The notes under the pieces were generated by a model. It did no database searches and was not told where the DNA came from. It worked only from the letters and a program-made list of their open reading frames with translations. The position numbers and the translations under genes were made by a program. A stretch of DNA of 64,000 nt from Candidatus Liberimonas magnetica (lineage in GTDB: Bacteria > Elusimicrobiota > Endomicrobiia > Endomicrobiales > JAFGIL01): contig JAJAPY010000010.1 in the NCBI GenBank assembly GCA_020523885.1, positions 1 through 64,000 of the forward strand, read 5' to 3'. Below, piece by piece: positions 18,001 through 43,410 of this stretch (positions are counted from its first letter, which is position 1; each line of letters begins with the position of its first letter).

Positions 18001-21000
18001 CAGCCTGACCTCTGGAGAAAGATAGCAACGGAAGCCTCAAAAGGGAAAAAGAACTACTTTATAACTTATGATATTTCCCCCGTTACCCTTCCGGAATATA
18101 CCATGGGTGTAAAAATAAAAGGAGCAAGTGCGTTCCTTGTGTCTACGCCTAATACTATACTGTCCACTAACCTGCCTTATGAGTCCCAGTTAAGGACTAT
18201 CGTCGCTTCCCCGAGAAACGTGACCGTTGTCCCTGAAGCTCTGGATGTTTCGTTCCTTGCCAAGGAACTCAATGCGACCGATAATACAGTTTATCTGCAG
18301 TCTGTGGCGAACTTCCAGCCTGTAAAAGGCGGCGCAGTGATAGATACTGAGATAATCCTTTATGATTCTATAAACCTTGCGGACAATACGCTTAATAACG
18401 TCACCCGCGGCACGTGGGGTTCCAAGGCCGCCAGCCATGCTGCAGGCGCCATGGTCTCCCGTTCTTATGAACAGGGCATGATAAATGCGTCTATCCTGAA
18501 ACTTAAGCTTTCCTGCGACAACTTCCAGGTCAGGTGGTACAGGCTAAAACTTAACCGGACACTCCCTGCGGGCCTTTACGGGTATGACCAGGACGTCAAG
18601 AACGTTAAAATATGGAAAGATAACGGCAACGGCATTTTTGACAGGGATCAGGCCACGGGGCTTATAGCCTCGGAAACCCTCGTTTCTACAGGGACCGCGA
18701 ATTTCGGGACGGTCATCGACGGAGTATGTTTTGTCCAGCTCCACGGCGACGGGATTGACGGCAAGGGAGAACAATACCTTCTCATAAAGGCAACTCCGAC
18801 TGTCTTCTGGGTAACGATGGACATAGACCAGACAGCTACCCAGGGCGCTGTCATAGGCGTGCAGTGCCCGTACGGGGCTTCCTTTGAAGTCGGCGCAAGG
18901 GAAAGGAACGACCCCGTACACCATATTATAGACGGGGATGAACTTGAGTTCAGCAGTGTTGTACCGTATAAAGCCGACCCGTTCCCGTTCCGTTCAGGCA
19001 GCTATTTCTTATATGCCACTGTAAACACGCTGTCCGTCAATTATGAGGCCATAATGCCTGGTAAAGCGAGCCAGAATGCGACGAATGTCCCCATGATGTC
19101 TTTAAGCATGAAATCGGATCAGAATACGGTCATCTGGCAGGGTTTAAAAGTTGACCTGACAGGCACAGCCATAGATAAAGACCTGTCTGCGGTAAAGATC
19201 TGGGCGGATGTGAACAAGAACGGGTTATTTGATGCCGGGGACAGGGCTCTGAACTCCAAGAACGAGCTGGCAGGGCTCATCACTTACGGGACCGAGCACT
19301 TTGCAAACAGGACGGTGGCTATCCGTTTTAAAAAGCCGCCGGTAGTTAATTCGACCGAGACCGTTAAGTTCTTCGTAACTTATGACCTGGACACGCTTGC
19401 AACTATCGGGCACACGCTGGGGCTGTCCATAGCTAATACGAATTATTTTATTGTTAATTCGCCCAGCCTTGTCAAGTTGACCCGGTCGGCGCCTTACGCC
19501 ACCGACCTTGTTACTATCCAGCAGTTCCCGAACACGCTTACCTTTGAACCTTATCCGTGGAGCGATCCGACTCATTTGCCGGACCTGCTTAACGGAGCGA
19601 TAATAACCCAGGGAGATTTAAACGTTCCCGTAATGAAATTCAGGCTAAAGACCGACGTATCGGAAGCTCTCTGGACAAAGATAAGGGTTGAGCGCATAGG
19701 CCAGGGTGCGGCAGGCCAGACTTCAGGCGGCACTAATAACGATATCGCCCTGGTAAAGATCTTTAAAGATTCGAACGGCAATGAAAAGTTCGACGGAGGA
19801 GACCTGCTCATTTCTTCAGGCACAGATAAATTCCCGCTGGACACGGTGGGCCCGACCTGCGACATCTCTTTGGCAGAGCCCCAGATCATAAGGCCCGTGT
19901 CCCAGGTCTATTTTGTTGTCTATGATATAGCTACAACAGCTTATGCAGGCAACAGCATAGGCGTAAAAATAAAGGACCGCTCAAGCCTGGCCGTCAATGA
20001 CCCTAACAGCTTTGCAGTGTTCCCGACATCCCCGCCGTTCCAGGCCGGCGGCTGGTTCCAGAGCTCCTATGCTCCCATACTTCCTATTAAAGTGAAGATG
20101 GCTTGCCAGAACCTGGCGCCCGTGGTCAAATTGCCCGGGGACAAGAATATACCCATGTTAAAGCTCAACCTGAACTCCGAATCAAACCCCATAACTATTT
20201 CGTCGATAACTGTTTATCAGACCGGCGAAATAAACCGGCCTCAAAGCGACCGTGACTGGTACTTGGGCATAGGCGACGGAGATTTCTCTGCCATCAAACT
20301 CTGGAGGGACGACGGTGACGGGCTTTTTGACCAGGTAAAAGATACTATGATCGACAGTATTCCGAGCAAGAAGTCTCTGATGGATGCCGGAGTTATTCTT
20401 AGAAGCGATGTCGGCGCCATCCGCTGTTTCTCAGGCGGCCTGGCTACCTTATATTGCGGAGATATCATTAATGCAAAAGTGCAGAATTATTTTCTTACCG
20501 CAGATATGGGCACGACCGACCTCGGAGGAAAGCCCGTATTCCAGCATTCGGCAGGCCTTACGATAGGGTCTTACTCTGACCTTAGTATAGTGCCTCGAAC
20601 ATCAGCGTCCAGCATAGACAATACCTTCCCGTATGAATCAAAAAGCTTACGTTTGGCGGATGTTGCTATCTTAGCCGTGAACGTCAGGCCGGACAAACCC
20701 GGAGTAAATGACGTTGCCTGGTTCAATTCTACAACAAAAATAAGTGCAAAATGGGAGATAATCAAGGTTCAGCAGGCTCAGATAACTTCTTACATGGCAG
20801 CTCTTGGAAGTAATCCTGACCTGGAAGATATGACGATGGGCATGGGGCAGAACGGCTGGGCTTCCACGCCTACGCAGTCCATAGACCTTACAGGTCTTGC
20901 TTTGAGCGAGCCTATAGTGACATTCCTGGGAGCTGATTTACTCGCAACACAAGCTAACGGGACAAGCATAACAGCTTACCTGCCTGCAGGCCATCCAAGG

Positions 21001-21939
21001 ATAGGCACACCTGCTACGGCTGGTTTTGACAGTGGCGGGCAGATTATAATAGGAAGAGAAATAATAGGTTATACAGATTCAAGCGGCGATTCGTTTAAGA
21101 ACATAACAAGGGGCCTGCATAATACAACTATAGAAGATCATTATAAGTCCGATCAGATAACGAACCATGCCTACTTCCTTAAAGTTAAAGCTGTTTCAAG
21201 CCTGGCAGGCATAACACCTCAGGTCTGGGGAGTTATAAAGGTAGATATGTCGCCTCCTTCCAACCCTGAAAATGTATTGCCCGCTCCTGCTGTATCTGGG
21301 GTCCCTGCTACGGAAGGAAAATATGAAGTTAAATGGGTAAGCGCAAAAGATTTTGAATCAGGGATTGAAGAATATGAAGTACAGGAAAGGATGGACGCTA
21401 ACCCGGTCTGGCAGACTATTGACGTGATATCAGGCAACAATTTCAGCATAAATGTTGGAGACGGCCTGGCCGCTGACATTAACGGCGTTTCGATAAAAGA
21501 CGATGCAAGGCCCGAAGGCCACTTCTATTATTACAGGGTAAGAGCAAAGAACGGAGCAGGTTCCTGGGGCCCGTGGTCTGAAATGTCTTTACCAGCTACT
21601 ACCGGTATACCTAACGATGTTATTTCTGCGGTATCCAACTATCCTAACCCGTTTGATACGCGCAGGGGCGGACAGGAAGGAAAAACCAATATAACCTATA
21701 TATTAAATCAGAATGCTGAAGTCACTATTTCAGTGTACGACCTGTTAGGTTATCTTGTTACAGAATGGAGATTTAGCCAGGGCGAGGAGGGCGGAAAGCA
21801 GGGTACTAACGTTGTTCCCTGGGACGGCACTAACGAAGCAGGGCAAAAGGTCGCAAAAGGCGGGTATATTGCCCAGATAAAAGTAAAATCGAACCGGGGT
21901 GTTGTTACTTCTATAAGAAAGATAGGAGTAATACACTAA
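1..21939 (+). CDS. Giant secreted Ig-like repeat protein with FlgD-like C-terminal sorting domain (5' end outside window)
   Basis: The frame is open from base 1, so the first ATG at 232 is internal; at least 7,312 residues lie in the window. From base 994 to about 13020 there are 32 units of about 125 residues (my count), each opening like 'KLLVLVPGE' and containing 'TAG' plus a core of the type 'VTVNACDKYWN'. The D and the N four residues later are kept in all 32. About six more degenerate Ig/filamin-like units ('QDxYGN') run to about 15730. Then come eight modules of about 200 residues with EF-hand-like 'DxNGxFD' loops, a fibronectin-like segment (about 21240-21600) and a FlgD-like domain with 'YPNPF' and 'WDGTNEAGQKVAKGGY'. 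The last domain matches the sorting-domain type carried by type IX secretion cargo. I infer a cell-surface fibre or adhesin. No catalytic motif was seen. Function unknown. Confidence 0.9.
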   Translation, partial: KTTVNWTYSRPSLSYSWEDGHYYRARVKGSDNINNAEAVISSSTFIYDVTNPTSCITNGRKPGGQSCALVNQYLADLMYVEGTANDLPPASLYASGIKDTNGVEYCIIMESNTPTHVYENGIPDSTHDWQWDDVSSTWTLYSGTLLWTKAEGGAIWNTKSMTGKWYTGRWYLVKSRAIDKADNQQDMASASWTRFAITQPADHLTVSVDNASPEAGQTVTVTIEARDNKNNLAKDYTGTVVLRVDQNYGIAGSGPEFPRGTATPPDGVGWLPSTYTFVMANEGKYTYVTSRATETLKFAKQGTRTLWAADITDPTHVNGKKENIIVSAAKAKKLRVLVPNQVRAPGVYSGITGSVVPIVAGTAIEVTVDACDDYWNVAPSTSAVVNLAINPRSSPSLPQAYEDNSSQNKELKNGSNLPQGTTVYSVTLITKGNRTLTASAGGLWTPSTSGNISVSAQPSEVLQVLVPGEVQREGKSPHYPSSGNGGKSVAVDISTQTVDNPFAVTVNACDKYWNTDTGAVQWIDLATTDIYDTNPSSKQFSSGSTTFTLNLKTGNLAIGCTSRYNVVYASASVHEGAALANASSTGITVKPSTAAYVMILMNGETHKPGKTTAPAGKLNSPATLTAGTTTTVTVLLTDKYYNFTSTANATAGELTMPIIDIYTSDPNDPFSASAKGSSIGTQLIKGKATYPVWLKTANDTGVTADNWLLYARDTDGEGKDYTPADTPSQNVQVDADTVVKLLLLVPGETHVPASAAYPGGKSYTTIGSTIAGREYIVTVKTCDRFWNRNRNGNTRTVYVRTPDDTNDDEPIGSTLNNGLRPFTLTMKTVGITGSKTQRIFAVDPSNPPSQQWSTGTISGAGTMTLYPDAASRLSLIVQGENEAPGTALGKSGPALQPDAGQTFWIRVNVCDQYFNRVLQLAPTVQVSFPNDYGYDSPPAQSWMNDGALGYKTFNISLSVASTQQVLIHHIDNIFTDTSTIVNVKSKQAAQLLLLMPGEQFRPGKTSGIKGKSAVTPDPQTAGVAFIVTALSVDEYWNQASTNTSVSLTLEDQYAGTISPKNLVLKTTFSLILYSKDSQSTLTLTDGSGGMADYWNDGSTMRSYVNLTANVPYRAFVVAPGECATNNDKPIAGKYNVLPYGKSGTPTTRIADTNFTCTLYVVDQYYNLLDDEDSTPVLSFNTAGHYIRSNDPNDGTTPWGALDPVQWTTETVNKDTGKTFTWRFITSIGTTIQPGTGWNIIVDTPTNPSNYKPSMTQAIKVTTNTVVNYPQLLVLQPNQAYWPGSQYGKSTRSGADQVAGSTYTITVKCTDRYFNQTNDAPIVSIKTYDAYDDETQWANKPLAAGQRTFVMKHYTAAANSAWLTAVHNSGGKVTYSSSTTNNFMVNPSSAVKLQVIVAPAVDETEVPGKWNQTPYGKTSSITTKTAGTSFNVRVNGVDLYWNKVTGAAADVKLASTDTHDSEPLSTRPLDEGTTSFIWTFISATTNGWTLTATDEDAQPLTSYTSPVIPVNGAAASKLLVLVPDEVPDAGSSTGRSGTVATQTAGVPFVITVNAVDSSNNINRDVQSDVNVWLKTTDPYDATIATQTFINGTTTFTHIFITATDATNKAYHPTPPGISASWRIDAYSTTLSSRASSLVLVNPNNDTATRRLLVLVPGETPVPGKNPYTGNTGGKNSNITSRTAGVAFNVTVNACDYWWNRNISFNPANVSLTSNDPNYTPISAQTLNTGTTVYSLTLVSRNDTGWTVSANHADYTGYTSPQVPVAPNAAQKLLVLLPNQTDAGNWGTSTGRSGTPGEQTAGKQFKITVKACDNWFNFKPTDVSSICVVTSDTYDLNPSTRMLVAGVTNFTATVVTAGSGQNIKVYDRTSPYMDMNTSDPFDVVAGSATKLLVLLPNQTPLPGSATGRTGTVINQTAGTPFTVTVRSTDNSYNLKSNPSMVRVDTSDQWDLHPSTRALEAGTTYFEMMLVTAGAGHVLTSRDAETTPTLALNNSSTLTVVPNSAEKLQLLVPGETAVPGKYYNGYNPAPHGKTSNVTTRTAGKTFVATVNLVDAYFNKVSVNYPSVRLTSTDPYYVITSSQQLQSGTTTFTVKLVTSGSDPSNPPASYNAWTMTASDVDLDNPLYVSTTSPNISVSPDTCKKYQIILPGETAAPGKTTGKSGKTEDSTVRKSTAGVTFPVYVRACDDYWNVCNVGNNATVTTTDSNGVVVPSAATPLVSGKRTFDVTLKRATTIGWTINVTGGGYTQYTTAGIVTDPSGPSKLLCLVPNETHAPGSSTGKGGSVLGQTAGKSFVITTFITDSEWNLVPSTSAKIGITTTDPYDVHPDSASTSGGVANFSIEFHKGIGESYTIKASTAEGNKLESYTTPMINSVAGDAVKLQLLTSPQAFNPGSSTGKTGTPSTWISGTPGQVTARVVDKYWNRQTSAETTVRLACDDPYYSVPVPNSFPTSLGQAIIDTTLISATQSGWTIIASTIAAGATNPQLLPSSCDNVKVTAGVASKMLVLVPGESLLPGSTYGRTGNKTLETAGVGFNVTVQVTDNKWNPISDSTQTIRLTSNDPFAPSIPDKQAQGGYAVFFATMITGNAGALNTSTRTTTLTTADVTAGSSKLVDSGTGSVPVGPAPEATYLLMLLPNQTHNPGHPPYAPTSTGWNPGGASGYPSVLTAGASYYITVGVCDKYWNINPNVTAPVVTVTKSDTYTSNPPAVALSGGKNTFEFSCKKATLYQELSDKTTCQATAGGYYISQATVSVSPAPDTPPNAKLLILPEGQSALPGSVTGKTGNTKIQTAGVWFPVKVFCTDRYNNINKNFQPGVTLTSTDPNDDTALGLPGFSWDPKYQPLVNGTTVFMITLVTANTGHYLTANDTDGSDPYYGNTMSDKVNVNSGGAVKLQVLLPGETAKPNTAIGKEGTVQEQTAGKSFNVTVNCTDVLWNRNDAAANTMVALNSAEPYAVLPSTQSTVSGQVILPVTLYKATTSNVIISSATTTSYILGTSSIFTVIASTDARLHITLPGETYKPGKGPYNGTGGKQGTITQQTAGQNFTATVRGTDNYYNLKTGMGSALVTITYSDQWVNPPNSAALSSGVQPFVINMVTYSTQTVYATYAVPIISSATSSGVYIHPKYSEKYLQILAPNEVAQPGHASTRGRSGSPSNRTAGVAFKVTVNACDQYYNPVSTNPVVTVTTNDVYDQEPASKALIGGTTTFDLMLVSAKVTRSSATANSFMRDYTGDMTVIADDRSTSDQRLQILLPNEKAAPGKWNNGTNSTPWGKTGYPSAQTAGVAFPITVRTTDKYWNPTTIYQPFVDVSASDPNNGLGVLPIQLTGGVKVFDSSSIKTWFVTANRYSVISSSYTSGTKYHLPYVSTPVYVNSGGSEKLLALVPGETYKPGTPNGKSGPHNSVTAGLPFNVTVYGCDSNWNYVNGETSLVRLTNTDIYSNMSLGLGYKEQGLDSNAKTVFSQIIYKASTHTFTATDQSPENGTIDFYFTTFTVTAVSSAAVKMQVLVPGETYKPGKPPYTIGGGKTGAPWPQVAGSSFTATARLVDPYWNTVNSGHQARIDTQDPYDVHPATTSLVGGKREFDIKMVTSSSWTLTGVDIDNPLIAVGVSSPVFVAPGGAKKLQVLLPGETLVQGHINGKTGTPKARIAGKAFNVTVNLCDDNWNTIVSGPMPSVTLGSDDVYWSTPTALTLSNGTKEFAATLITAATHTITAQAEGYTLGVSSPVYIRPNEAKQLLVVLPNQQRVNGKYNVAPFGRSGSVATQTSGVQFYSTVYAVDDYYNWVSTVTQNAINTTTSDTNDVNPGNLYMAYGLAIASCTVRTVALTTISAQDNDGGVYPNLASGQSSPFTMAAGPVKKLQVLVPGEFPAPGTDSGRTGTPYHATAGHPFTVTVRTCDTYWNLRYSTPTISVWTSDPNYNINNPGAATWSGLITTSKTVALTMVTASTGTTKYYVYVEDQTDVLTPLTSQGITTDADIAEKLLVILDGEDFKGGTATGKSGMPAEQTAGTAFPVRAAICDHYWNRVTNVPELIKVTSPVDLYDVEPSSSQVDTGSGTTPQMMFTLTMATTYQYIRADDVDYIYPQCTGNNSSVFNVKPAPPTKLQILLPGETGMPGKWNNGINTPPYGKTGSPGSVPQTAGVSFNATVNLVDVFYNVQTAVTQPYVHVNTNDKYDVEPSTKQLVSGSNYFDINLHTANTFHMLTAIDTSYTYTSDASPLFTLEHSSAARLIPLMPNETYVPGSSTGKTGTPSTWFAGGNFTTTVYLTDMFYNRVRDGVTMPNVTFTSWDPQDTEPSVPLTFVDGANTFPVFPKTAASTWTLTAVQTDVPSKYMSGKSSDIRIWPGNVNHFEFVNLVSTVIAGTGFDVRVNIHDPYHNLVDTGTNWTGYATPNRLVRFISDVYTSPQNASTPADYDFALGDNGTALFPIGITLRRASKTVSDKRHIQVYDTQVTSIKADGYIYVRPGSFYKMAVSTSIAEPGSPVHNTLLPAGSASNNANIQVIGQMVDSYNNEISSAGLTAHLFIRDVYGSTGTIKDGAPGQAHHVWESTTTDANGRVGYSSVINGPGALYYYASTIAGHYARVWIATFTAPGDISAFTADYRNISGRITTTGGTPVEFRFKDMPASMTAGIESPAIKVERYDVFGNITSQGLSQPILSSNSLSPQKQFRWPSGASNNLISVGNKIDITNGNTFAQFYYYDEMSSYPQGENSRPGQWQLKATGLNLDASQNLIVKPAATVKLAFTNPPRTELAKSIKAADLQTVQEFIIQPQDSYSNPTISTFTSIFVHLTSDRLQSKTSDYYAFSISSMSIGSFNDGIRTVVEIATNTYFTKVYYKDTRASNSYTPVNSKPIIQAKETPEKFWTMGTQLVTILPDYISKTVFISPNQQLTAGTTSQLFLIQTQDPYSNPSPVLYGDSDPNISYTGIRFGLSCTSPSTYKRFKTVGYGWQNSTGVVLMKINTDTTSFYMVDTCAGNYNLRASEDRFTTKGWGVAIQTYTVVADVPYKMVFATPPRRLIAGTTIGYYPDYSVGVQTNTAISIQVQDFWGNTKAVSQPTIVSVRTKSPPSNPKAYASVNPNPPNPLTGYTSINPTDTPLPITLNIGDSTANFYFKSEIAGTVPIEAWIGGLQHTVQNQTITPNKIRYFTIEHSYTNATPLSVQIPGPITVQARDQYGNRASGDTINGNYYVSKARFWSWGSTATVTLNPSTFTFTNTAGTSMPEPGRFVNLQITDLIQENLRVGASDYLDSSINGFTSDIRGSAGDIVTVGVVMNPADFAPGGKTASDLGLGSYLVQGDGTIPSKPSPIAMVRMTLQINPNVPTIVSSATWTYVRVQRAGSLGYNQVAEISLYKDAGANPNGRFDGDTVLGNPYSATDLFLSSGTITDAVSDEVTLKLRLPQVITRTPQVYFLCVKIPSDATRNATLGLKLPSNALTMTGTALLARNNFPFTSYLSSVHTEPAKVLVELRDISAWYDPDADSNGPLPLKSYDYVPQGFTATGMIRIGMWTRDYTALWKQLTVTRTGVGPDSDLVSARLFSDNGDGLFQFGTDMPVSEEAVFSGGQAKVLINNHLIDTNTQYFFLVYKIADGAVLGNTIGARLTVTDFSMADGNMAAEDPIKYPAQAALFNFLTATPAIQATQDHLIVDQALSGGVVPGAVTQGDQDVPLVLLRLRTDYRNVLWNNLKLTRRNVNDRNSDKDVANVKVYYDRGIGYMTQGLTASSTASALIRLTTTYAFGPKGYLYVGNEIMQYTSVISSDTCIYVPAGGRGALNTAAVAHGQGEPVVGTGDTILQPKIDQLVSPDVPQYMRFVSSNVSIPINGPNGGQQILADKPYPNGVGKVYFIAYDVDYFAALGETYLGLDVKTTGYFTVNYPKLVDPSKIPFSSEIVRINEYPDKITVTPKETTIGDSLMQGTTNQAVLSFTLEADKSYGFLNSIYLNRTGNTADVDVTAVKIWYDGDDNGFLSPNTTNDWVIGTGTFGGQNVEGEAFINIATNTLTLKGGSEVQPDLWRKIATEASKGKKNYFITYDISPVTLPEYTMGVKIKGASAFLVSTPNTILSTNLPYESQLRTIVASPRNVTVVPEALDVSFLAKELNATDNTVYLQSVANFQPVKGGAVIDTEIILYDSINLADNTLNNVTRGTWGSKAASHAAGAMVSRSYEQGMINASILKLKLSCDNFQVRWYRLKLNRTLPAGLYGYDQDVKNVKIWKDNGNGIFDRDQATGLIASETLVSTGTANFGTVIDGVCFVQLHGDGIDGKGEQYLLIKATPTVFWVTMDIDQTATQGAVIGVQCPYGASFEVGARERNDPVHHIIDGDELEFSSVVPYKADPFPFRSGSYFLYATVNTLSVNYEAIMPGKASQNATNVPMMSLSMKSDQNTVIWQGLKVDLTGTAIDKDLSAVKIWADVNKNGLFDAGDRALNSKNELAGLITYGTEHFANRTVAIRFKKPPVVNSTETVKFFVTYDLDTLATIGHTLGLSIANTNYFIVNSPSLVKLTRSAPYATDLVTIQQFPNTLTFEPYPWSDPTHLPDLLNGAIITQGDLNVPVMKFRLKTDVSEALWTKIRVERIGQGAAGQTSGGTNNDIALVKIFKDSNGNEKFDGGDLLISSGTDKFPLDTVGPTCDISLAEPQIIRPVSQVYFVVYDIATTAYAGNSIGVKIKDRSSLAVNDPNSFAVFPTSPPFQAGGWFQSSYAPILPIKVKMACQNLAPVVKLPGDKNIPMLKLNLNSESNPITISSITVYQTGEINRPQSDRDWYLGIGDGDFSAIKLWRDDGDGLFDQVKDTMIDSIPSKKSLMDAGVILRSDVGAIRCFSGGLATLYCGDIINAKVQNYFLTADMGTTDLGGKPVFQHSAGLTIGSYSDLSIVPRTSASSIDNTFPYESKSLRLADVAILAVNVRPDKPGVNDVAWFNSTTKISAKWEIIKVQQAQITSYMAALGSNPDLEDMTMGMGQNGWASTPTQSIDLTGLALSEPIVTFLGADLLATQANGTSITAYLPAGHPRIGTPATAGFDSGGQIIIGREIIGYTDSSGDSFKNITRGLHNTTIEDHYKSDQITNHAYFLKVKAVSSLAGITPQVWGVIKVDMSPPSNPENVLPAPAVSGVPATEGKYEVKWVSAKDFESGIEEYEVQERMDANPVWQTIDVISGNNFSINVGDGLAADINGVSIKDDARPEGHFYYYRVRAKNGAGSWGPWSEMSLPATTGIPNDVISAVSNYPNPFDTRRGGQEGKTNITYILNQNAEVTISVYDLLGYLVTEWRFSQGEEGGKQGTNVVPWDGTNEAGQKVAKGGYIAQIKVKSNRGVVTSIRKIGVIH
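994..13020 (+). repeat. Array of 32 Ig-like protein repeats (about 376 bp each)
   Basis: Hand count of the opening motif (variants of 'LLVLVPGET' and 'LLPNQT') gives 32 units between 994 and about 13020, average spacing about 376 bp. Each unit carries 'D-x-x-x-N' after a beta strand, and most carry a later 'T-x-D-P-Y-D' turn. A cysteine precedes the aspartate in 13 of the 32 and is shifted by one in three more. Units are clearly diverged, so this is an old array, not a recent expansion. Confidence 0.85.
15760..20650 (+). repeat. Eight modules with EF-hand-like acidic loops
   Basis: Eight copies of a module of about 200 residues. Each has an acidic loop such as 'KDNGNGIFDRD', 'ADVNKNGLFDAGD' or 'RDDGDGLFD', then a strand like 'YFVVYDIATTAYAGNSIGVKI', then an 'LPY/LPFxS' linker to the next module. 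The loops resemble dockerin/EF-hand calcium sites; calcium binding is inference. Two modules and the region after the eighth hold an extra insert (near 17215, 18343 and 21050) of the form 'xEIIxYT..ITRG'. Confidence 0.7.
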
Positions 21940-22730: not shown

Positions 22731-23138
22731 ATGTTTAAAATTAAACTAAATATCATATTAAAATTGATCCTGGGGCTGGCAGCCGCGTTTATATACCTGG
22801 GTGCCGGTACGGTTTCTTTTGGTCAGGGGAACGGAAACTCTTTAGGGTTAACTGTCAGCAACTATCCGAACCCTTTTGATTCCAGGAATGGATTTACGAC
22901 CATTGTCTATTCTTTTTCCAAAGAAGGAAGGGGCAGGATGTTAATTTATGACCTGTTGGGTAATTTAGTAAAAGAATACCCTATCGAAAACAGCGGCACG
23001 GGCGCTAACAAGCTGGTCTGGGACGGCACAAACGAAGCAGGACAGAAAGTGGCAAAAGGCGGGTATGTCTGTGTCGTTGAGGTCTTAACCAGTTCAAATA
23101 AAGTGCTTTCTATAAGAAAAATCGGAGTAATTCACTAA
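22731..23138 (+). CDS. Small secreted protein made of a signal peptide and a FlgD-like sorting domain
   Basis: 135 residues. The hydrophobic N-terminus (about 1-32) looks like a signal peptide. The rest has 'SNYPNPFDS', 'YDLLGNLV', 'WDGTNEAGQKVAKGGY' and the end 'IRKIGVIH'. The same C-terminal block ends the giant protein upstream, so this is the sorting domain without a passenger. The ribosome site AGAGGTG precedes the ATG. It is the first gene after two tandem c-di-GMP riboswitches, each with its own terminator, so its expression should depend on c-di-GMP. It could be an anchor, a structural subunit, or a decoy for the sorting machinery. Role unknown. Confidence 0.85.
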   Translation: MFKIKLNIILKLILGLAAAFIYLGAGTVSFGQGNGNSLGLTVSNYPNPFDSRNGFTTIVYSFSKEGRGRMLIYDLLGNLVKEYPIENSGTGANKLVWDGTNEAGQKVAKGGYVCVVEVLTSSNKVLSIRKIGVIH

Positions 23139-23148: not shown

Positions 23149-23312
23149 CAGTAACCAGTGACCCGTGACTAAGTGACAGGGAAACTGAGAGAAAAGAAAA
23201 TGAAAACCACATTAACTATAACCAATCTAATAGTCAGAAACCCAATAAGGATATTAATGTTTGTCTTTGTTGTTAACTGGTTACTGGTTACTGGTCACTG
23301 TTCACTGGTTTA
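23149..23312. repeat. Heptad-repeat pair straddling a start codon, words CAGTAAC/TGGTTAC
   Basis: Left arm CAGTAAC-CAGTGAC-CCGTGAC (23149-23169) lies before the next gene. Right arm TGTTAAC-TGGTTAC-TGGTTAC-TGGTCAC-TGTTCAC-TGGTTTA (23271-23312) lies inside its signal-peptide coding region. The start codon at 23200 is in the loop. Confidence 0.85.
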
Positions 23313-24822
23313 CGCTGCTGCTACGGGCGGCCAGCCGGGCCAGTTCCTTTCCTGGGGAGCGGGCGGAAGGTCTTTGGGTATGGGGAGCGCCTTTTTCGCG
23401 GTAAGTGACGATGCCTCTGCTACTTATTGGAACCCTGCAGGCCTTACCCAGATCGACAGGAAAGAACTTATGGCCCTGCATGTAACTCTTTTTGCGGATA
23501 CTTCTTATGATTTTATATCTTACGTCCATCCGACGCCTAAAATGGGTGTTTTTGGAGCGAATGTGACACGTCTTTCTTCAGGCGGTTTTGAAAAGGTGGC
23601 GGTAACATTTAACCCGGCCCAGACGGATATAATCAATATTGAGAACCTTGGGACTTTCGAAGACGTGAGCACGGCCTTGACCTTTGCTTACGGTAAAAAA
23701 ATAAAAGAAAACACGTCTATAGGCGTTTCCGGTAAATACATAACCCACACGCTTGATACTTCAGTAAGCGGTTTTGCAACGTTTGACACAACTCTTTTTG
23801 TTGATGGAATGAGCAATACTTTAAAGGACCTGAAACTTGGTTTCGGGATCCAGAACCTGATCAGCACAAAACTCGGGGATACGGATGACGTATTGCCTTT
23901 GATCCTGAAGATAGGCGCCAGCCAGAAATTCTTACGGGACAAACTCATGGTCGCCCTTGACCTGGACAAAAATATGAATACGAATATGGGCTGGCACATT
24001 GGAACTGAATACTGGGCTATCAATTTTGTAGCGCTCAGGCTGGGTTTTCAGGGAGAAAGCGGGCTAAGGGAAACGACGGCAGGTTTCGGGGTTAAATATA
24101 AAGATTACAGCATCGATTATGCCTTTGCTTTGCATGACCTCGGTTTTTCGCAGAGGTTGTCCGGTTCCTGGAGGTTCGGTCCTTCGGTCAGGAAAGACAG
24201 GGATAGTTTAGTGAACCGTTATTTGCAGGAAGGCATAGAAGCTTACAGGCAGGGAAACTTCATGCTTGCGCACGAAAGGCTTGAAGCATCTCTGGAAATT
24301 GACCCGACAAATAAAGAAGTTCAGAAATCATTTAATAAGATACAATTGATAACAGGGTATGTGAAGGAGGCAACGGGAGAGAACGAAGAAGTAAGTGCTA
24401 TAAGAAAAGCGGTTTCAGGGTATATGGAAGGCGATAATAAAACGGCTATAAATGCCCTGCGTTATGCTTATTATAAGAACCCGAGCAATGTGAAAGTCTT
24501 GGCCTTGCTAAACAGGATAGAGCAGCAGCTTGGGCAAAAATTGACCGATGCACATAAAGAAGAGGTCGTAGGTTTTACTATTATAGACCAGAAGATCTAT
24601 GATTCAAGACAGGCCATAATCGAAGGTAAATATGATGAAGCGCTGATCAAGTGCCAGGACATACTTAACCTGGAACCCGAAAATATCACGGCCCTGGAAA
24701 TGATGGGTTCGGCGTTCTTTATGATGGACCAGCCGGATAAGGCAAAAGAAATATGGATGAAAGTCCTGGAACTCGACCCTACGAACAAAATAGTGCCGGA
24801 GTTCCTGAACCAACTAAAATAA
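23200..24822 (+). CDS. PorV/UPF0164-family outer-membrane barrel with C-terminal TPRs
   Basis: 540 residues from the ATG at 23200; a GTG at 23173 is in frame but has a poorer context. After the signal peptide comes the PorV/UPF0164 signature: 'GAGGRSLGMGSAFFAVSDD' then 'TYWNPAGL'. Residues to about 330 alternate as in a beta barrel. From about 339 to the end there are TPR-like helices ('YRQGNFMLAHERLEASLEI', 'GKYDEALIKCQDILNLEPE'). In type IX secretion, PorV carries sorting-domain cargo at the outer membrane; that role here is inference. The gene follows two sorting-domain genes. Oddly, part of the signal peptide ('WLLVTGHCSLV') is a translated heptad repeat. Confidence 0.82.
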   Translation: MKTTLTITNLIVRNPIRILMFVFVVNWLLVTGHCSLVYAAATGGQPGQFLSWGAGGRSLGMGSAFFAVSDDASATYWNPAGLTQIDRKELMALHVTLFADTSYDFISYVHPTPKMGVFGANVTRLSSGGFEKVAVTFNPAQTDIINIENLGTFEDVSTALTFAYGKKIKENTSIGVSGKYITHTLDTSVSGFATFDTTLFVDGMSNTLKDLKLGFGIQNLISTKLGDTDDVLPLILKIGASQKFLRDKLMVALDLDKNMNTNMGWHIGTEYWAINFVALRLGFQGESGLRETTAGFGVKYKDYSIDYAFALHDLGFSQRLSGSWRFGPSVRKDRDSLVNRYLQEGIEAYRQGNFMLAHERLEASLEIDPTNKEVQKSFNKIQLITGYVKEATGENEEVSAIRKAVSGYMEGDNKTAINALRYAYYKNPSNVKVLALLNRIEQQLGQKLTDAHKEEVVGFTIIDQKIYDSRQAIIEGKYDEALIKCQDILNLEPENITALEMMGSAFFMMDQPDKAKEIWMKVLELDPTNKIVPEFLNQLK

Positions 24823-25167: not shown

Positions 25168-26994
25168 ATGAAAAAGATTAATCCATCAATCATCAGGCAA
25201 AGGGCTCCAGCTATACTGTTATTTGCTTTTATAATATGCCTAATGCCAATTGCCAAAGTATCGTCCGCTGTAGAAAGAACAGATACAGATCAGATGAACC
25301 TTATGGACCAGGAGATAAAATACGAAAAAGAAAAATCTGATTACCTGCAGAGTTCTATCCTTGACAAGATACTAGGCCCCGGAAGGGCTGTTGTTATAAT
25401 CGATATTGAGCTAGGCATTGAAACGCAGATCACAAAACAGACGGCAAATGAGCAGAAGAATGAAAAGAAAAAAAGGCTCGGAGACATGGAATATCTATTG
25501 CCTGGCATCCCTAACCCTAAATCCGTTACCAACGAAGCGCCCCCGGCCGAATCAAAAGACGAAGCAGGTCATGCAGAAAAAACCACTATTTCAGCAAAAA
25601 CAGTCATAAAAAAACAGGTAGTGACCGTGCTCCATGATGAGCAGATACCCCAGGAGAAGCTGGATACGGTAAAAGATGCGATAAGCAGTATCCTTAAAAT
25701 AACCCCGGCCCGCGGCGACAGGGTCGACTTTAAGAAAACGAAGTTTACCAGGGGTTTCTTTGAAAAAGCTCTGGACCCGTACATCCTTATCCCTTCTGTA
25801 GTTGCCTTGCTCATCCTGTTTTTTCTTTTCGGGCCTTTATCCAGCTTCTTCCGTTCTCTGGTAAAGACCCTGAGAGAAAAAGGAGGCACGGAAGTAACGG
25901 TAGATTCCACTTTTGCAGGCGGCCCGGAAGGCGAAGAAGGCGAAGGTAAAGACGGTAAAGGCGGCGGCGTAGGAGGGTTGGGAGGGCTTGAGTCCTTGGA
26001 AGGAGAAGAAAAGAAGTATATCCCTTTTAAATATATTACCGAAGAAAACCTGAAAAGGTTGTTGTACATTATCAGAAAAGAATCTCCTGAAGTAATAGCC
26101 CTTGTCATAAGCTACCTCAAACCAGAATACGTAAGGCTTATGTTGAATGGCTTAAGCCCTGAACTCCAGGCACAGGTCGCCGTAGAGATGGCAACGATAC
26201 GCCAGATGACTCAGCAAAAAGTTTTATCTGTAGATAACGACATAAAAGACAAGATAGACTTTTTAGTAGGCGGGCTTGACCATCTTTTGAAGGTTTTGGA
26301 TGAAGTCGATATTGTCACAAAAGAAAATATCCTTGATTATCTAAAAAACGAGAAACCCGAACTTTATGAAAGGGTCAAAAAATACGTCATAGTATTTGAA
26401 GATATCCCGTCATTCCCGGACCTGGCTATGCAGACTATAATAAGGGAACTTAAATCCGAAAGCCTGGCAAAAGCCCTGAGGGACGCGCCTGCCGATATCA
26501 TGAATAAATTCTTTGCAAATATGTCGGTTAACGCAGCGGCCGTATTGAAAGAGGAAATGGAATACGGCAGGCCTTTGACCAAAGAAGAGATCGAAGAAGA
26601 AAGAAAAAAGATAATCGATACCGTAAAACAACTGGAGAGAGACACGAAAATATTCATAAGAGAAAGGCCTAAAAGCGGGGCCCTGGAAGGCATCCAGGAC
26701 ATAATCCCGGGATACGTGGAACCGGGCACGAGCGGTGACTTTAACGAGTATTTTAACGCAGGGGCCGGGTTTTATGATTCGGGCGATTATCAGAATGCAG
26801 TAGGTTATTTTGAATACTGCAGCCAGCTGGACCCTATGAATGCACAAGTCTTTCAATATTTAGGCAATTGTTATTACTCCTTAGGGCGTAATCAGGAGGC
26901 CCTTGCTGCTTTTGAACGAGCTCTCGAAATTAACCCGGCTGACGAATCTTTGAGGCAGTGGCTTGCAGAGCAAAAGAAAGTATTGAGCAGTTAA
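25168..26994 (+). CDS. FliF-FliG-like fusion with C-terminal TPRs (flagellar-rotor-derived membrane protein)
   Basis: 608 residues from the ATG at 25168 (GAGG seven bases upstream; upstream ATGs lack a site). An N-terminal hydrophobic stretch (about 16-34) is followed by a periplasmic part with 'ILDKILGPGRAVV', the hallmark of the FliF/YscJ C-terminal region. A TM segment (about 206-225) and a Gly/Glu-rich linker (about 250-280) follow. Then comes FliG: the middle domain near 290-345 ('ESPEVIALVISYLKPEY') and the C-terminal domain near 405-495 ('VFEDIPSF', 'IIRELKSESLAKALRDAP', 'KFFANMSVNAA'). TPRs occupy about 525-605. FliF forms the flagellar MS ring and FliG the torque ring. Here the ring-building N-terminal part of FliF is missing, and the usual DD of the FliG torque helix reads PD. 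No other flagellar gene is in the window. Probably a rotor relative recruited to another machine. Confidence 0.85.
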   Translation: MKKINPSIIRQRAPAILLFAFIICLMPIAKVSSAVERTDTDQMNLMDQEIKYEKEKSDYLQSSILDKILGPGRAVVIIDIELGIETQITKQTANEQKNEKKKRLGDMEYLLPGIPNPKSVTNEAPPAESKDEAGHAEKTTISAKTVIKKQVVTVLHDEQIPQEKLDTVKDAISSILKITPARGDRVDFKKTKFTRGFFEKALDPYILIPSVVALLILFFLFGPLSSFFRSLVKTLREKGGTEVTVDSTFAGGPEGEEGEGKDGKGGGVGGLGGLESLEGEEKKYIPFKYITEENLKRLLYIIRKESPEVIALVISYLKPEYVRLMLNGLSPELQAQVAVEMATIRQMTQQKVLSVDNDIKDKIDFLVGGLDHLLKVLDEVDIVTKENILDYLKNEKPELYERVKKYVIVFEDIPSFPDLAMQTIIRELKSESLAKALRDAPADIMNKFFANMSVNAAAVLKEEMEYGRPLTKEEIEEERKKIIDTVKQLERDTKIFIRERPKSGALEGIQDIIPGYVEPGTSGDFNEYFNAGAGFYDSGDYQNAVGYFEYCSQLDPMNAQVFQYLGNCYYSLGRNQEALAAFERALEINPADESLRQWLAEQKKVLSS

Positions 26995-27162: not shown

Positions 27163-30100
27163 ATGGATTTCAGGAAAAAAGACGTACAGAACAAAAATAA
27201 TGAATTAAAAACGGATGCGGAAAAGGCTGGAAAACTGCCTGACAGCGCCCCTTTTAATGAGGAACAATTCACGAGTCTCTATCAGAAAGCCCAGGACCAG
27301 ATAAAAATAATCGAGCAAAAGATAGCCAATGAAAGAGAGCTGTGGTACCAGAGGATAAAACAGAAAGAAGAAGACCAGGTATCCCTTAAATCCCAGCTTG
27401 ATATGCTCGTTTATAAAGTTGAACAGGAAAGGAAAAAAAGAGAGGGCGACCTAAATATACTGCACCAGCATATACAGAAAGACCTGGCCGAACTGGAAAA
27501 AAGCATCAGCGAAGAAGTTAAGACCTGGACAGAAAAAATAAACCAGAAAGACAAGGAACTGGAAGAAATAAAGCACCAGTCCGTTTTTCTTGAAACGCAG
27601 AAAAAACTTGAAGCGGAAAAGAATATCCGGGACCTGCAGTCGTCGCTTGAAAGTACCAAACAAAAGTATAAAGCCATAGAAAGGCAGTTGATAGAAGAAA
27701 AAAATCTATGGATAGACAAGGTAAAAAGCAAAGAAGAAGAAATCATTAACCTTAAAACGCAGATATCCTTAAAAGAGATACAGATAAAGTCCGAGGATGA
27801 AAAAGCAAAGGCAAAAAAGCGCGACCTGCAGCTGACCTGGCAGGGCCAGACAAAAGAAATGGAAGAAAAGCTGGAAAAACTAAGGAAGGAATGGACCGAT
27901 ACTTACAAGAACAAGGAAGAAGAACTGTTCACGCTTAAGATCGCCCTTGAAGAGCACCTTACGGCTATTGCCCTGGAGGCAGAAAAGCAGGAAAAAGAAA
28001 TAAGCAGTATGAATAATAGGATCAGCGACAGGATCGTGGTCATAGAAAAAAGCATTGAAGAAGAAAAGAGCCGCTGGCAGGAGCTATTAAAGGCAAGGGA
28101 AGAAGAGTTTAAGGGCTTAAAAGCAGAGCTTGTCCTGAAGGAAAGCCAGGAAAAGGCCGAAAGAGAACAGAGGTTTAAAGAACTAAAAGAAGAAGAAAGC
28201 CAGGCAGGCCGCAAACTGAAGGATATAGGCCAGAGGATAGAACAGGAAAAAGAAAACTGGAAAGTAAAAATATTCCAAAAAGACGAAGAATTGAAGATCC
28301 TGAAAATACAGTCCGAGATTAAGCTCAAGGAACTTCAGGATGAATGGTTAGATAAAGAGTCAAAGACAAAGGAAGAAAAAGAAGCTCTTATTGAGCGCCT
28401 GAAAGAACTTGAGAATAAGCTTAATACCGAAAGAGCTGCCTGGGAGAACGAGTTAAAAGGCAAAGACCTTGAGATCAACCAGTACACCGAACAATGGGCG
28501 TTAAAGAAAAATAACATAATAAATAATGAAAGGCAGAATATAGAAGACCTTAAAAACAAAAAGGTGGTCCTTGAGAACGAGCTCCTCAGCCTTGAGGAAA
28601 GCTTTAATAAAGAAAAGCTGCACTGGGAAGAATTGCTGAAGAATAAGGAAAAAGAGGTCGAAAATTATAAGAACGATGTTGTGTCCAAAGAATCAAAGAT
28701 AAAAAGAGACCTGGCTGATTTTGAATATAAATTCAGCCTGGAACTTGAGCCTTTTACGCTAAAAACAAAAAACTTTGAGGCCGATATTTCCGCTGCATCA
28801 GAAGAATTCCAAAAGCAGATAGCTCTTAAAGAAACACAGAAAGTAATGCTCCAGAACAGTTATTTTAGGCAGGAAGAAAAATTAAAAAAGCAGCTCGATG
28901 CCCACAGCAGCAGAGTCAGCTCACAGGAAGGGGCTTTAAGGAATAAAATAGCCGGAGTACGCAGTTTGATCCAGGCGCAATCCCAGAACGCAACGGAGAA
29001 ATTAGAGAAATTAAAAGCGCAGGAAGCAGCTCTAAAGAAACAAGTAGAGACCATAGAAGAGAGGATAGCAAATGAAAGAGCCAGGATTTCCCGTGAATAT
29101 AAGACCCGCAGAGAAGAGATGGAAAGCAATATCAAAAGGCTTGAGATAGAAAGAAGGGACGTAAAAAAGAATATGGAACTGAAGCTTTCCAATAAAATAA
29201 AGGAACTTGAAAATGAGGAAATAAGGGTCAAAGAGTTTGAGAACAAAGCTAAAAATGAAGTGCTGCAAAAAGAAAACGAATTAAAACTCATAATAGCCAA
29301 GGGCGATGAGGAGCTGGCGGGTTTACGGGCTAATTTAGAAAATGCAAAGAAAGAATATAACCAGAGAATAAAGGAAAAAGAAGATGAAATAAACAAGCTT
29401 TTTGAATCCGTAAAAACCAACGAAACGCGGATCAACGGTGAGAAAAACAAATTAGAACAAGATCTGAACCATGAAACCCAGGCCCTTTTGCTCAAAAGGA
29501 AGGAACTGGAAGGAGCTCTTCTAAAAGAGAAAAAAGCCTATGAAAAAGAGGTAGCGGCCATAGACAGCAAGATAGCTTCTTTGAGGCAGAGTCAGGAACT
29601 AAAAACAAAAGATTACGAAGCTATGCAGGTTTTGTGGCATGAAAAAATAGCCCAGACAAAAAGCGAGTACAATAAAAAGATCGACGAAATGCATCTTAAC
29701 AGGGATGATGCGAATAATATCTCAAGAGAGATGATAGACAGGCTGGAAAAAGAAGAGATAGAACTGCAGCAAAACCTGATAGAAAGCAAGTCAAAGTACA
29801 TAAGTGAAACAAACAATTTAAAAGAAAAGTATGTGCTTAAGAAAACCGAACTTAACGGCCTGGTAGAAAAGCTGAACCTTGAGCTGGAAGAACTGAGAAA
29901 GACGGTCAATAAAGACTTGAGCTTGAAAAACAACAAGCTTGAGGAAGAAGAAAACAAATTAGGCAGTATTGTTTCTAAAACCAACAAGGACCTTTCCCTG
30001 TGGGAAAAAGAATTAAATCAGATCAATGAAACAAAAGATAAGGAAATAAGTGTACTGAAGGCCAATATAGAAAAATCAAAAGAAGAATACACCGGTAAAA

Positions 30101-32727
30101 TAAGGCTGCAGGAAACCAGGCTGCTGCAGGTTCAGGAAAAAATAAAGAATGATGAAAAAACATTTGAAGCGGAAAGAAAAGGCCTGGACGAAAAGCTTTC
30201 GGCAGAAATAGAGCCCCTGCTGGAGAAGTACAAATATCTTAAAAACCAGCTGACTGTGGAACAACAAAGCGCTGAAATCGACCTGGCCGCGCTTGAAAAG
30301 AAAATCACCGGTTTAAAGAAGAAACAAGATGAGCTTGAAGCGGATTACGCCGTAATGCACGCCGCTTGGAATGAAAAGGTAGATAAAGCCAAACAGGATT
30401 ATGAAAAAGAAATAAGCAATTTAAAACTGGAGCAGGCCAGGATTGAAGCAGAACATAAGGATATGCTGGAAAGCCAGGAAAATGATTTTAAAGCCATAGA
30501 AAAATACAGCCTGGAACAGCTGGAGCAGTTTAAAAAGCAGAAAGAAGATGAAATAAACAGGTCAAGGAACCAGGTAAGCAAATTGCAGGATGATATGCGG
30601 GGCCTGGAATTAGAAATAAGCAGTATCCAGAACAGCCACCCGCAGATCCTTAAAACAAAAAGCGATGAAATTTCAAACCTGGAAAAACAGATAAGCGACA
30701 GGTCGGTGTTTTACGCCCGGGAGCAGGAAAAAGCCGAAAAAGATATTGAAAATTATCAAAAGAGGTCTGAGGAAAGGATTTTAAAGCTAAGGGAAGGAAT
30801 AGAAAGCCTAAAAGCCAAATTTAAAATCGAGCAGGATGACCTTAATAAGAAATATATGGAGTTAAGGCAGGAGCTTGAGAAGAAGAACAAGGATAAGAAA
30901 GAAGAGCTTATTAGTGAAGAAAAAATATATTTTGAACAAAAAGTAAACCTGGAAAAACAGAAAAACGAACTCCTTGAAAGCCTGAAAAACACGAAAACAA
31001 TATCTCAGGAACAGCTCAGGCAGAAAGAGAAAGAGATCCTGGCTTTGCAGTCGGAGTTGTCCCAGAAGGAGAAAGCCTGGGAGCAGAGCTGGCAGATAAA
31101 AGAAAAAGAGTTTTCAGCCGAAAAGGCAGGTATTAGCGATGAGATAGAAAACCTGGCAAAAAGGTCAAAAGAAGAGGAAGAGATCTACGGAAAAAGGCTG
31201 CAGGAAAAAGAAGCCGAGATAGAGCAGTTAAGGACACAATACGACATAAGACTGAAAAAACTGGAAGATGAAATATCGCATAAGAAAGTGGCCTGGGAAC
31301 AGACGAACACGGGGCTCTCATCGCAGGTTATGGGCCTGACCGAACAGCTCGCCAGCATGCAAAAGAACTATGAAGAAGCCATAACTTTAAAAGAAAAAGA
31401 TTTGTCGGTTTTAAAATCAAACCTGGAGTTCTGGGAACTTAGGTCAAAAACTAATGAAGAAAAACGCCTGGCTGCCTGGGAAGACGAAAAACTCTCCCTT
31501 GAGAACAGGATAAAAGAAAGCAGCCTTAAATTAAGCAGCTTTGAGAAAGAATATAATGCCCTTATCGAAGAAAAATCCAAAATAGCAACAAGAATAAACG
31601 AAGAAGCCAGAATAACCGAGCAGGATAAATTAAACCAGTGGAAACAGTTTGAAGCCGGATTAACTGCCCAGCATGATCATTTGTTAAAGGAAGTTGAGGC
31701 CTGGCAGGAGCGCATAAAGAAGGAAACTATTGTTTCTGACGACAAGATAAAAGCCTTGGAAAGAGAAGTAGATAAAATGAAGTTAGAAGCTTCTTTAAAA
31801 GACACTATGATACAGTCAGACCAGCAGAAAATGGAGCGCGAGCATAGAAAGGTGCAGCAGAAATTGAAAGAAGAGCTCATGGCTTTGGAACACAGGATGG
31901 CAGAAGAAAAAGAAGACTGGCTGTCCAAGCTGCGTTTAAAAGAAGAAGAAATTGAAACTTTAAAAGTCCGGTTGACGATGCGCGAAGAAAGAAGGCAGAA
32001 CGAAATCAATAAAAGAGAGGAAGAAGTCAAAAGAATTATTAAAGAGCTTGAATACAGCTTGACTGCGATACAGGACGATTATAATAAAAAAATACCAGAG
32101 AAAAAAGACAGGATAGACACCCTGCAGGAACAGCTGAACTCGATATTAAAAGAAATTGAAACCAAAGAAAAACAATGGAAAGAAAAACAGGAAAACAGGA
32201 ATAGGGCCTTAAACGAAGGTTATGCCGGTTTAATGAAAGATATAGGAAAACTTGAAAGCGAGCTGGAACAGGAAAGTAAAAAGATGAACGAATTAATAAT
32301 GGCTAAGGAAAAACAGATAGAGAACCTGGCTGTTCAAATGACCGCTAAAGAAAACGACCTGGTCGTGGAACGCTCCTTTACACAGGAAATAATTACTGAG
32401 TTAAAATTTAAATCGGAAGAATTTAAGAGGGTATTCAAAAAACATACCAGCAGTCAGAGCATCAACAAAGCAGATGAAATAGGTAAATTATTTGAAGCCT
32501 GCATAGAATACTTTAACAGCGAGAAATATGCGGAAGCAAAAGATAACCTGGAAAATATAATAAAGGCAGAGCCGGATTTTTCAGGAGCCTATAAATATCT
32601 GGCCTTATGCTATTGGAACCTCGGGCAGAAGGAAGAAGCTCTAAATACGGCTCAAAAAGCCCTTTTGCTTGAACCGGAAAACGAAGAACTGACGAACTGG
32701 ATAAAATCCATAAAAAATAGAAATTAA
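27163..32727 (+). CDS. Giant cytoplasmic coiled-coil protein with C-terminal TPRs
   Basis: 1854 residues, no signal peptide and no TM segment. Almost the whole length (about 40-1765) is Lys/Glu-rich coiled coil with recurring phrases such as 'LKxKEEEIxxLKxxL' and 'W..KLKxKEEE'. The last 75 residues are TPRs ('YAEAKDNLENIIKAEPDF', 'KEEALNTAQKALLLEPENE') that resemble the TPR tail of the FliF-FliG fusion just upstream. The ribosome site GGAGAGGA precedes the ATG. A continuous coiled coil of this size could reach roughly a quarter of a micrometre. I infer a filament or long tether that docks near the membrane through its TPRs. Related families include SMC-like and AglZ-like coiled coils, but no head domain was recognised. 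Confidence 0.85.
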   Translation: MDFRKKDVQNKNNELKTDAEKAGKLPDSAPFNEEQFTSLYQKAQDQIKIIEQKIANERELWYQRIKQKEEDQVSLKSQLDMLVYKVEQERKKREGDLNILHQHIQKDLAELEKSISEEVKTWTEKINQKDKELEEIKHQSVFLETQKKLEAEKNIRDLQSSLESTKQKYKAIERQLIEEKNLWIDKVKSKEEEIINLKTQISLKEIQIKSEDEKAKAKKRDLQLTWQGQTKEMEEKLEKLRKEWTDTYKNKEEELFTLKIALEEHLTAIALEAEKQEKEISSMNNRISDRIVVIEKSIEEEKSRWQELLKAREEEFKGLKAELVLKESQEKAEREQRFKELKEEESQAGRKLKDIGQRIEQEKENWKVKIFQKDEELKILKIQSEIKLKELQDEWLDKESKTKEEKEALIERLKELENKLNTERAAWENELKGKDLEINQYTEQWALKKNNIINNERQNIEDLKNKKVVLENELLSLEESFNKEKLHWEELLKNKEKEVENYKNDVVSKESKIKRDLADFEYKFSLELEPFTLKTKNFEADISAASEEFQKQIALKETQKVMLQNSYFRQEEKLKKQLDAHSSRVSSQEGALRNKIAGVRSLIQAQSQNATEKLEKLKAQEAALKKQVETIEERIANERARISREYKTRREEMESNIKRLEIERRDVKKNMELKLSNKIKELENEEIRVKEFENKAKNEVLQKENELKLIIAKGDEELAGLRANLENAKKEYNQRIKEKEDEINKLFESVKTNETRINGEKNKLEQDLNHETQALLLKRKELEGALLKEKKAYEKEVAAIDSKIASLRQSQELKTKDYEAMQVLWHEKIAQTKSEYNKKIDEMHLNRDDANNISREMIDRLEKEEIELQQNLIESKSKYISETNNLKEKYVLKKTELNGLVEKLNLELEELRKTVNKDLSLKNNKLEEEENKLGSIVSKTNKDLSLWEKELNQINETKDKEISVLKANIEKSKEEYTGKIRLQETRLLQVQEKIKNDEKTFEAERKGLDEKLSAEIEPLLEKYKYLKNQLTVEQQSAEIDLAALEKKITGLKKKQDELEADYAVMHAAWNEKVDKAKQDYEKEISNLKLEQARIEAEHKDMLESQENDFKAIEKYSLEQLEQFKKQKEDEINRSRNQVSKLQDDMRGLELEISSIQNSHPQILKTKSDEISNLEKQISDRSVFYAREQEKAEKDIENYQKRSEERILKLREGIESLKAKFKIEQDDLNKKYMELRQELEKKNKDKKEELISEEKIYFEQKVNLEKQKNELLESLKNTKTISQEQLRQKEKEILALQSELSQKEKAWEQSWQIKEKEFSAEKAGISDEIENLAKRSKEEEEIYGKRLQEKEAEIEQLRTQYDIRLKKLEDEISHKKVAWEQTNTGLSSQVMGLTEQLASMQKNYEEAITLKEKDLSVLKSNLEFWELRSKTNEEKRLAAWEDEKLSLENRIKESSLKLSSFEKEYNALIEEKSKIATRINEEARITEQDKLNQWKQFEAGLTAQHDHLLKEVEAWQERIKKETIVSDDKIKALEREVDKMKLEASLKDTMIQSDQQKMEREHRKVQQKLKEELMALEHRMAEEKEDWLSKLRLKEEEIETLKVRLTMREERRQNEINKREEEVKRIIKELEYSLTAIQDDYNKKIPEKKDRIDTLQEQLNSILKEIETKEKQWKEKQENRNRALNEGYAGLMKDIGKLESELEQESKKMNELIMAKEKQIENLAVQMTAKENDLVVERSFTQEIITELKFKSEEFKRVFKKHTSSQSINKADEIGKLFEACIEYFNSEKYAEAKDNLENIIKAEPDFSGAYKYLALCYWNLGQKEEALNTAQKALLLEPENEELTNWIKSIKNRN

Positions 32728-37435: not shown

Positions 37436-37535
37436 GTAGGAACTGCCCCGCTGCCACTCCCGGATTTATTTAATTGAGCCTCTCCATCGCAGTTTTGGCA
37501 AATAGGGTGTTTTGTGCGGCGGGTTTAACACCATA

Positions 37536-41744: not shown

Positions 41745-41745
41745 A

Positions 41746-43394: not shown

Positions 43395-43410
43395 CTCTTG
43401 GAGGATGAAA

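Follow-up and report, generated by a model that had tools for sequence, protein, structure and literature searches.

A natural FliF-FliG fusion of Elusimicrobiota as the probable rotor subunit of a MotAB-driven motor without a flagellum

Introduction

Fusions of FliF and FliG, the proteins of the flagellar MS-ring and C-ring, have been made as laboratory constructs. A natural FliF-FliG fusion occurs in Chlamydia, which has no flagella (PeerJ 2016, PMC4768692). It has about 330 residues, combines RBM2 with FliG-M, has neither the FliF-specific RBM3 nor a reported FliG-C, and occurs together with FlhA and an injectisome (PMC4768692). An RBM3-like ring motif with a beta insert has been described for SpoIIIAG (PMC4768692), and the role of rotor proteins in species without a filament has been raised as a question (PMC12199754).

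All Elusimicrobiota are said to lack flagellar machinery, and the isolates are non-motile (mBio 2024, PMC11257099). A paper on the evolution of MotAB does not mention the phylum (PMC12505986). Our literature search, preprints and most subscription papers aside, found no earlier description of a motor of the kind proposed below. Here we follow up an initial annotation of 64,000 nucleotides of Candidatus Liberimonas magnetica (assembly GCA_020523885.1, contig JAJAPY010000010.1, positions 1 to 64,000), referred to as the window, in which a FliF-FliG fusion with a TPR tail had been noticed.

Results

Domain structure of the fusion protein

The open reading frame at 25126-26994 (+), of 622 residues, is real. 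The ATG at 25168 is the better start, as it yields a typical signal peptide (MKKINPSIIRQRAPAILLFAFIICLMPIAKVSSA) and a protein of 608 residues with the following features.

25168..26994 (+), FliF(RBM3)-TM-FliG(M,C)-TPR fusion protein, 608 residues (Pfam, NCBIfam, AlphaFold/Foldseek, PDB, homologue alignment)
25168..25269 (+), signal peptide, residues 1-34 (hydropathy and sequence)
25294..25782 (+), periplasmic FliF RBM3/beta-collar, the S-ring motif, residues 43-205 (model fold, Foldseek, PF08345 with E 0.002)
25768..25836 (+), transmembrane helix, about residues 201-223 (hydropathy maximum at 206; model helix 204-237)
26056..26256 (+), FliG middle domain (PF14841, E 1.3e-12)
26338..26655 (+), FliG C-terminal (torque) domain (PF01706, E 7.8e-28)
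26737..26985 (+), cytoplasmic C-terminal TPR tail (Pfam TPR matches and model)

The fusion of rotor modules reported by the initial annotation is real, with FliG-M, FliG-C, the transmembrane segment and the TPRs recovered by Pfam, hydropathy and the structural model. In the numbering of the 622-residue frame, Pfam placed FliG_C at residues 405-510 (97 bits, above the Pfam cut-off), FliG_M at residues 311-377 (48 bits), and several TPRs at residues 551-613. The C-terminal FliF model (YscJ_FliF_C, residues 79-207) reached only 19 bits and stayed under its cut-off. The NCBIfam model for fliG, TIGR00207, matched with 126 bits (E 1.6e-36), under the equivalog cut-off of 226.7, and a sequence search of the PDB returned T. 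maritima FliG-MC (1lkv, E 7e-34). A resemblance to MgtE_N (25.7 bits) is accounted for by the FliG fold.

An AlphaFold model was built from 21 homologues (pLDDT 71, with a low whole-chain pTM of 0.29). Its periplasmic region is predicted to fold as alpha-beta-beta-alpha-beta with two long strands. Foldseek matched the model to FliG-MC (1lkv, E 6e-12), to MotAB-bound FliG (8ucs_H, TM 0.87), to TPR structures, and to FliF RBM3/collar structures (6sd1, 8ftf, 8zdt, E 1e-4 to 5e-4). The last matches confirm the weak FliF sequence match and indicate that the S-ring motif is kept. RBM1-RBM2 (YscJ_FliF, PF01514) was found by Pfam neither in the protein nor in the genome. The earlier suggestion that the ring-forming part is lost is thus half right: RBM1, RBM2 and the first transmembrane segment are absent, but RBM3 and its beta-collar, the part of FliF from which the S-ring is built, remain. 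The entire architecture is conserved in 21 aligned homologues from across the phylum (identity 31-65%).

Distribution in the phylum and absence of a flagellum

Profile searches covered 150 genomes drawn from the Elusimicrobiota. FliG_C was found in 48, and 47 of these carry FliF-FliG fusions, in 1-5 copies each. FlhA (PF00771) and FliM/FliN (PF01052), for both of which the positive controls matched, and YscJ/FliF RBM1-2 over the cut-off were absent from the genome of the window and were found in only one of the 150 genomes, G032. Therefore, 47 genomes have the fusion without a flagellum. The G032 FliG, at 355 residues, has the normal form. The genuine flagellar locus of this genome (contig C2, locus L044, about 111-138 kb) encodes FlhA (801 bits), FliM/N, a FliF of 523 residues and this FliG, and is at odds with the paper in which all Elusimicrobiota are said to lack flagellar machinery (PMC11257099).

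No conventional flagellar operon was found in the genome of the window. With FlhA, FliM/FliN and the N-terminal domain of YscJ/FliF missing there, the proposal that a flagellar rotor module has been reused outside the flagellum holds.

Two families, f2 and f13, left aside, the sample contained 54 genomes without a flagellum, and 46 of these had fusions. The two families, mostly of reduced genomes, are almost devoid of fusions, and we infer from genome size and number of contigs that they are the families of the cultured Endomicrobium and Elusimicrobium relatives. When 84,980 species were scanned, the relatives detected were titled Elusimicrobia or Endomicrobia, a few only "bacterium", and the nearest came from an Endomicrobiales MAG; the scan used patterns taken from the window family and so is informative on relatives within Elusimicrobiota only. 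In a phylogenetic tree, TPR-type fusions formed a single clade (support 99/91) with the window copy deep inside it. C-type and TPR-type fusions together were split (98/97) from a group of flagellar FliG and FliG of the type found in a second fusion of the same genome, on contig C22.

The gene cassette

The initial annotation had placed the fusion outside any flagellar operon, among PorV-like barrels and giant coiled coils. The neighbors are as described and no flagellar genes adjoin, but the arrangement is no one-off, for it belongs to a cassette found phylum-wide. The genes of the window that are relevant here are listed below.

1..21939 (+), giant secreted repeat protein of at least 7312 residues (the contig start cuts the gene), FlgD-Ig-like tail (PF13860, E 1.3e-5, just under the cut-off)
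22731..23138 (+), small secreted protein with a FlgD-Ig/type IX-like C-terminal sorting tail (PF13860, E 1.7e-9)
23173..24822 (+), PorV/PorQ-family outer-membrane barrel with TPR tail (NF033709, 135 bits, cut-off 90)
27163..32727 (+), giant cytoplasmic coiled coil, 1854 residues, C-terminal TPR (ORF, Pfam, relatives)
32751..36386 (+), coiled-coil protein with Pro-rich N-terminus, 1211 residues (comparison with relatives)
43405..45489 (+), coiled-coil/TM/beta-propeller-like protein (relatives in the chemosensory region of the same genome and beside the cassette of G102)

For 96 fusions from 43 genomes, the surrounding DNA was compared over distances of up to 20 kb, with counts made on all reading frames. 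The recurrent order was a giant FlgD-Ig-tailed protein, a TPR-bearing PorV barrel, FliF-FliG, a cytoplasmic coiled coil with Pro-rich N-terminus, MotA and MotB. PorV lay within 2.5 kb upstream of 31 of the 32 TPR-type copies and 33 of the 64 others; for MotA within 6 kb downstream, the counts were 15/32 and 39/64. When either strand was considered, a flagellar-type MotA was present within 10 kb of 72/96 copies, and 40 of the 43 genomes had at least one MotA-linked copy. With few such genes per about 2.5 Mb, we estimate that chance would give linkage in a few per cent of cases. In named genomes, 52 of 78 TPR-type copies had MotA downstream. In the class of the window, a giant TPR-ended coiled coil occupies the place of the downstream MotA, and the counterpart of the gene at 32751..36386 lies between FliF-FliG and MotA in other classes.

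The gene for the giant repeat protein holds the same upstream position in the cassettes of relatives. In a Pfam search of the window product (1-21939), the tail alone was matched, and the repeats match no family. Judged by its size, repeats and tail, the protein is a candidate adhesin or cargo. PorV_fam exceeded its cut-off, and the sorting tails match FlgD_ig. Further type IX-like genes at 37512-46831 encode a CHU_C-tailed fn3 protein, a PorP/SprF-like barrel with LysM, and a second PorV with a carboxypeptidase-regulatory domain. Genes for FHA, PP2C phosphatase and CHASE2-like Ser/Thr kinase proteins adjoin several fusion cassettes (L037:15685-19817, on contig C22 of the same genome, and L084, L089 and L098), and phospho-control is possible.

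Chemosensory genes next to cassettes

In G102, genes for CheW, MCP, CheB, CheA, response regulator-PAS, an actin-like protein and CheC lead into the cassette, all in the same orientation. In G028, the coiled coil is followed by CheW, CheW, CheB, CheA, response regulator-PAS and the actin-like protein. The genome of the window has the same chemosensory gene set on contig C4, in a region that also holds relatives of the protein at 43405-45489. The actin-like (MreB/FtsA/PilM-like) protein of about 740 residues is constant in chemosensory clusters (L237:8766-10988, L048:77-2308, L239:6980-9178). CheW co-occurred with the fusion phylum-wide (p 6e-5), an association that disappeared when the two reduced families were left out (11/46 versus 2/9, p 1.0). 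Therefore, we used only physical linkage as evidence.

Stators

A search for stator genes, proposed with the initial annotation, identified flagellar-type MotAB, usually adjoining fusion genes. No MotAB adjoins the window copy, whose likely cognate pair is unlinked. The second fusion of the same genome, on contig C22, comprises RBM3, a transmembrane segment and full FliG N, M and C, and is followed by MotA and then MotB. The best NCBIfam matches of this MotA were flagellar MotA/MotP/PomA, and the MotB carries MotB_plug and OmpA. Another MotAB pair, on contig C19, has no linked fusion. Its MotA was nested in the clade that the MotAs of TPR-type cassettes form (support 100/100); the sister group of this clade was made up of the remaining unlinked MotAs of the window's class (99/96). 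This placement suggests that the C19 pair is most likely the stator of the window fusion. The idea of an orphan copy without a stator was dropped, since C19 MotAB belongs to the cassette-stator clade. Stator genes of the fusion-linked clade also occur in two genomes in which FliG_C was not detected (G039, L227; G068, L228).

The cassette, C19 and C22 stators are of the flagellar type by MotA type, MotB plug plus OmpA, and the presence of D32. Aspartate 32 was kept in 31/31 readable single MotBs and in 26/28 first MotBs of tandem pairs; the second tandem MotB had D in 15/28 and N in 10/28. Tandem loci include L053, L149, L163, L171, L178, L183-L185 and L191. The frequent N at the ion-binding position of the second copy makes an asymmetric stator possible. 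The same heterodimer question has been posed for AglQ/AglS (PMC9389320).

Torque residues and FliM site

The initial annotation had reported an altered torque helix, with PD in place of DD. This was mistaken: the DD in question is the counterpart of D243/D244 in E. coli, which are not part of the torque helix. In the window fusion, the true torque residues, D288 and D289, are both E; the actual losses are R281, which reads N, and R297. Position 288 was E in all 32 TPR-type copies and position 289 in 17 of them. R281 is replaced by G, N or S and R297 by T, S or N, and both are usually lost. On the stator side, MotA position 90 was K or R in 52/61 pairs, and position 98 was Q or E in 47/61, with its FliG partner R281 mostly G. 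The stator-rotor charges appear to be kept in part. The EHPQ motif, the FliM site, reads ESPE in the window fusion, with H126 and Q128 lost, which fits the absence of FliM.

Discussion

The phylum-wide presence of a flagellum-free module of MotAB and FliF-FliG is, in our judgement, very probably real, and its identity as a motor is well supported. The fusion is probably part of a machine that has not been described before and that moves things over the cell surface. We favor, with some confidence, the reading that the window protein supplies the rotor subunit of a rotary motor that is powered by MotAB, is not flagellar, and probably moves surface adhesins as in gliding; for the movement of adhesins or gliding taken separately, we see the case as evenly balanced.

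In such a machine, the periplasmic RBM3/collar would assemble fusion copies into an inner-membrane ring, similar to the S-ring but without RBM1/2. Every copy would bear its own FliG M and C arm, so that MS-ring and torque ring would be one polypeptide. MotA5MotB2 stators of the flagellar type, anchored to peptidoglycan through the OmpA domain of MotB, would turn against the FliG C-domain, the contact being mainly between K/R90 of MotA and the two acidic residues of FliG at 288/289. The unlinked C19 pair would be the stator in the genome of the window. TPR tails and long Pro-rich coiled coils would make up the cytoplasmic part. Force may pass from the periplasmic ring to the PorV-type outer-membrane barrel and the giant secreted protein of the same cassette. 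Displacement of this giant adhesin over the surface would amount to gliding, which CheA/CheW may control in some lineages. Several observations speak against this reading: no isolate of the phylum is known to move (PMC11257099), the fusion is largely missing from the cultured families, R281 and R297 have usually been lost, no MotAB lies near the window copy, stators of the fusion-linked clade occur in the two genomes in which FliG_C was not detected, the whole-chain pTM of the model is low, and CheW does not follow the fusion outside the reduced families.

The same MotAB/FliF-FliG motor might, without any cell movement, energize type IX-like export of giant cargo through an SprA-like translocon, with PorV and sorting-tail substrates, and thus take the role of GldLM/PorLM. 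We regard this as unlikely, though it is the alternative to be taken most seriously. The cassettes do encode PorV and sorting-tail substrates, and SprA-like proteins of about 1,800 residues, all under the curated cut-off, occur in 129/150 genomes (C1:346022-347665 in the genome of the window). GldM (TIGR03517) was not matched in a search that had no positive control, as no control genome matched either. However, most Elusimicrobiota without the fusion also have SprA-like genes, so export there needs no such motor, and the chemosensory clusters adjoining the cassette suit movement better. Still less probable is that the fusion, its FliG fold retained, serves as an immobile ring or scaffold of the envelope while MotAB act elsewhere. 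The loss of R281 and R297 and the lack of MotAB next to the window copy speak for such a scaffold; MotA within 10 kb of 72/96 copies, the retention of acidic 288 and of MotA K/R90, and a clade in which unlinked stators join linked ones speak against it.

That the protein is what decay has left of a former flagellum, or that the contig is chimeric, is very improbable. FliF and FliG are only partly preserved, but the frames are intact, there are 1-5 copies per genome, the same fusion and order recur in 47 genomes, and the copies form a single deep clade with conserved functional residues. This conservation of the fusion rules out a relic or artefact in practice. The chance that the protein is the ordinary FliG of a native flagellum is negligible, even though FliG_C is above the Pfam cut-off: the genome has no FlhA, FliM/N or FliF RBM1-2, which excludes a native flagellum, and the FliG part is fused to RBM3 and TPRs.

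Extending the rotary-motor reading to the phylum, we tentatively suggest, with slightly more doubt than belief, that the majority of free-living Elusimicrobiota possess a motility organelle not described so far, in which a stator of the flagellar kind and a rotor that unites MS-ring and torque ring in one protein drive giant surface adhesins without a filament. There would be several paralogous cassettes per cell, with chemosensory steering in some lineages, and some stators may carry a heterodimeric MotB, one half of which is dead at the ion site. A FliG rotor that runs with MotAB and without export apparatus, hook and filament would mean that the half of the flagellar motor which generates torque is able to function on its own. 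The fusion would be a natural minimal rotor, useful for tests of ring assembly and stator coupling. The result qualifies the published claim that Elusimicrobiota have no flagellar machinery and only non-motile isolates (PMC11257099).

Among described systems, SpoIIIAG has neither FliG nor a stator. The fusion of Chlamydia differs from the one described here, which keeps RBM3 and FliG-C, has lost RBM1/2, and is linked to MotAB, with no export gate present. AglRQS-Glt gliding in Myxococcus shares a MotA/TolQ-type motor, a pair of MotB-like subunits (recalling the tandem MotB genes found here), a coiled coil, chemosensory control and the absence of a flagellum. To our knowledge, the Agl system has no FliF/FliG rotor, whereas here a FliG rotor is present and the stator is of the flagellar type. 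GldLM-SprB gliding and type IX secretion in Bacteroidota share the logic of a 5:2-type ion motor, giant surface proteins that carry sorting domains at the C-terminus, barrels of the PorV type and an SprA-like translocon in the genome; here, the stator is MotAB with a FliG rotor, and the GldM search, which lacked a positive control, gave no match. With flagellar FliF/FliG and the artificial fusions, the protein shares FliG M and C, the FliF RBM3/collar, one transmembrane segment, a cytoplasmic FliG, the MotAB partner and part of the torque charges. Unlike them, it lacks RBM1/2, the EHPQ site, FliM/N, export gate, rod, hook and filament, and is a natural fusion with a TPR tail, encoded in a cassette with PorV and a giant surface protein.
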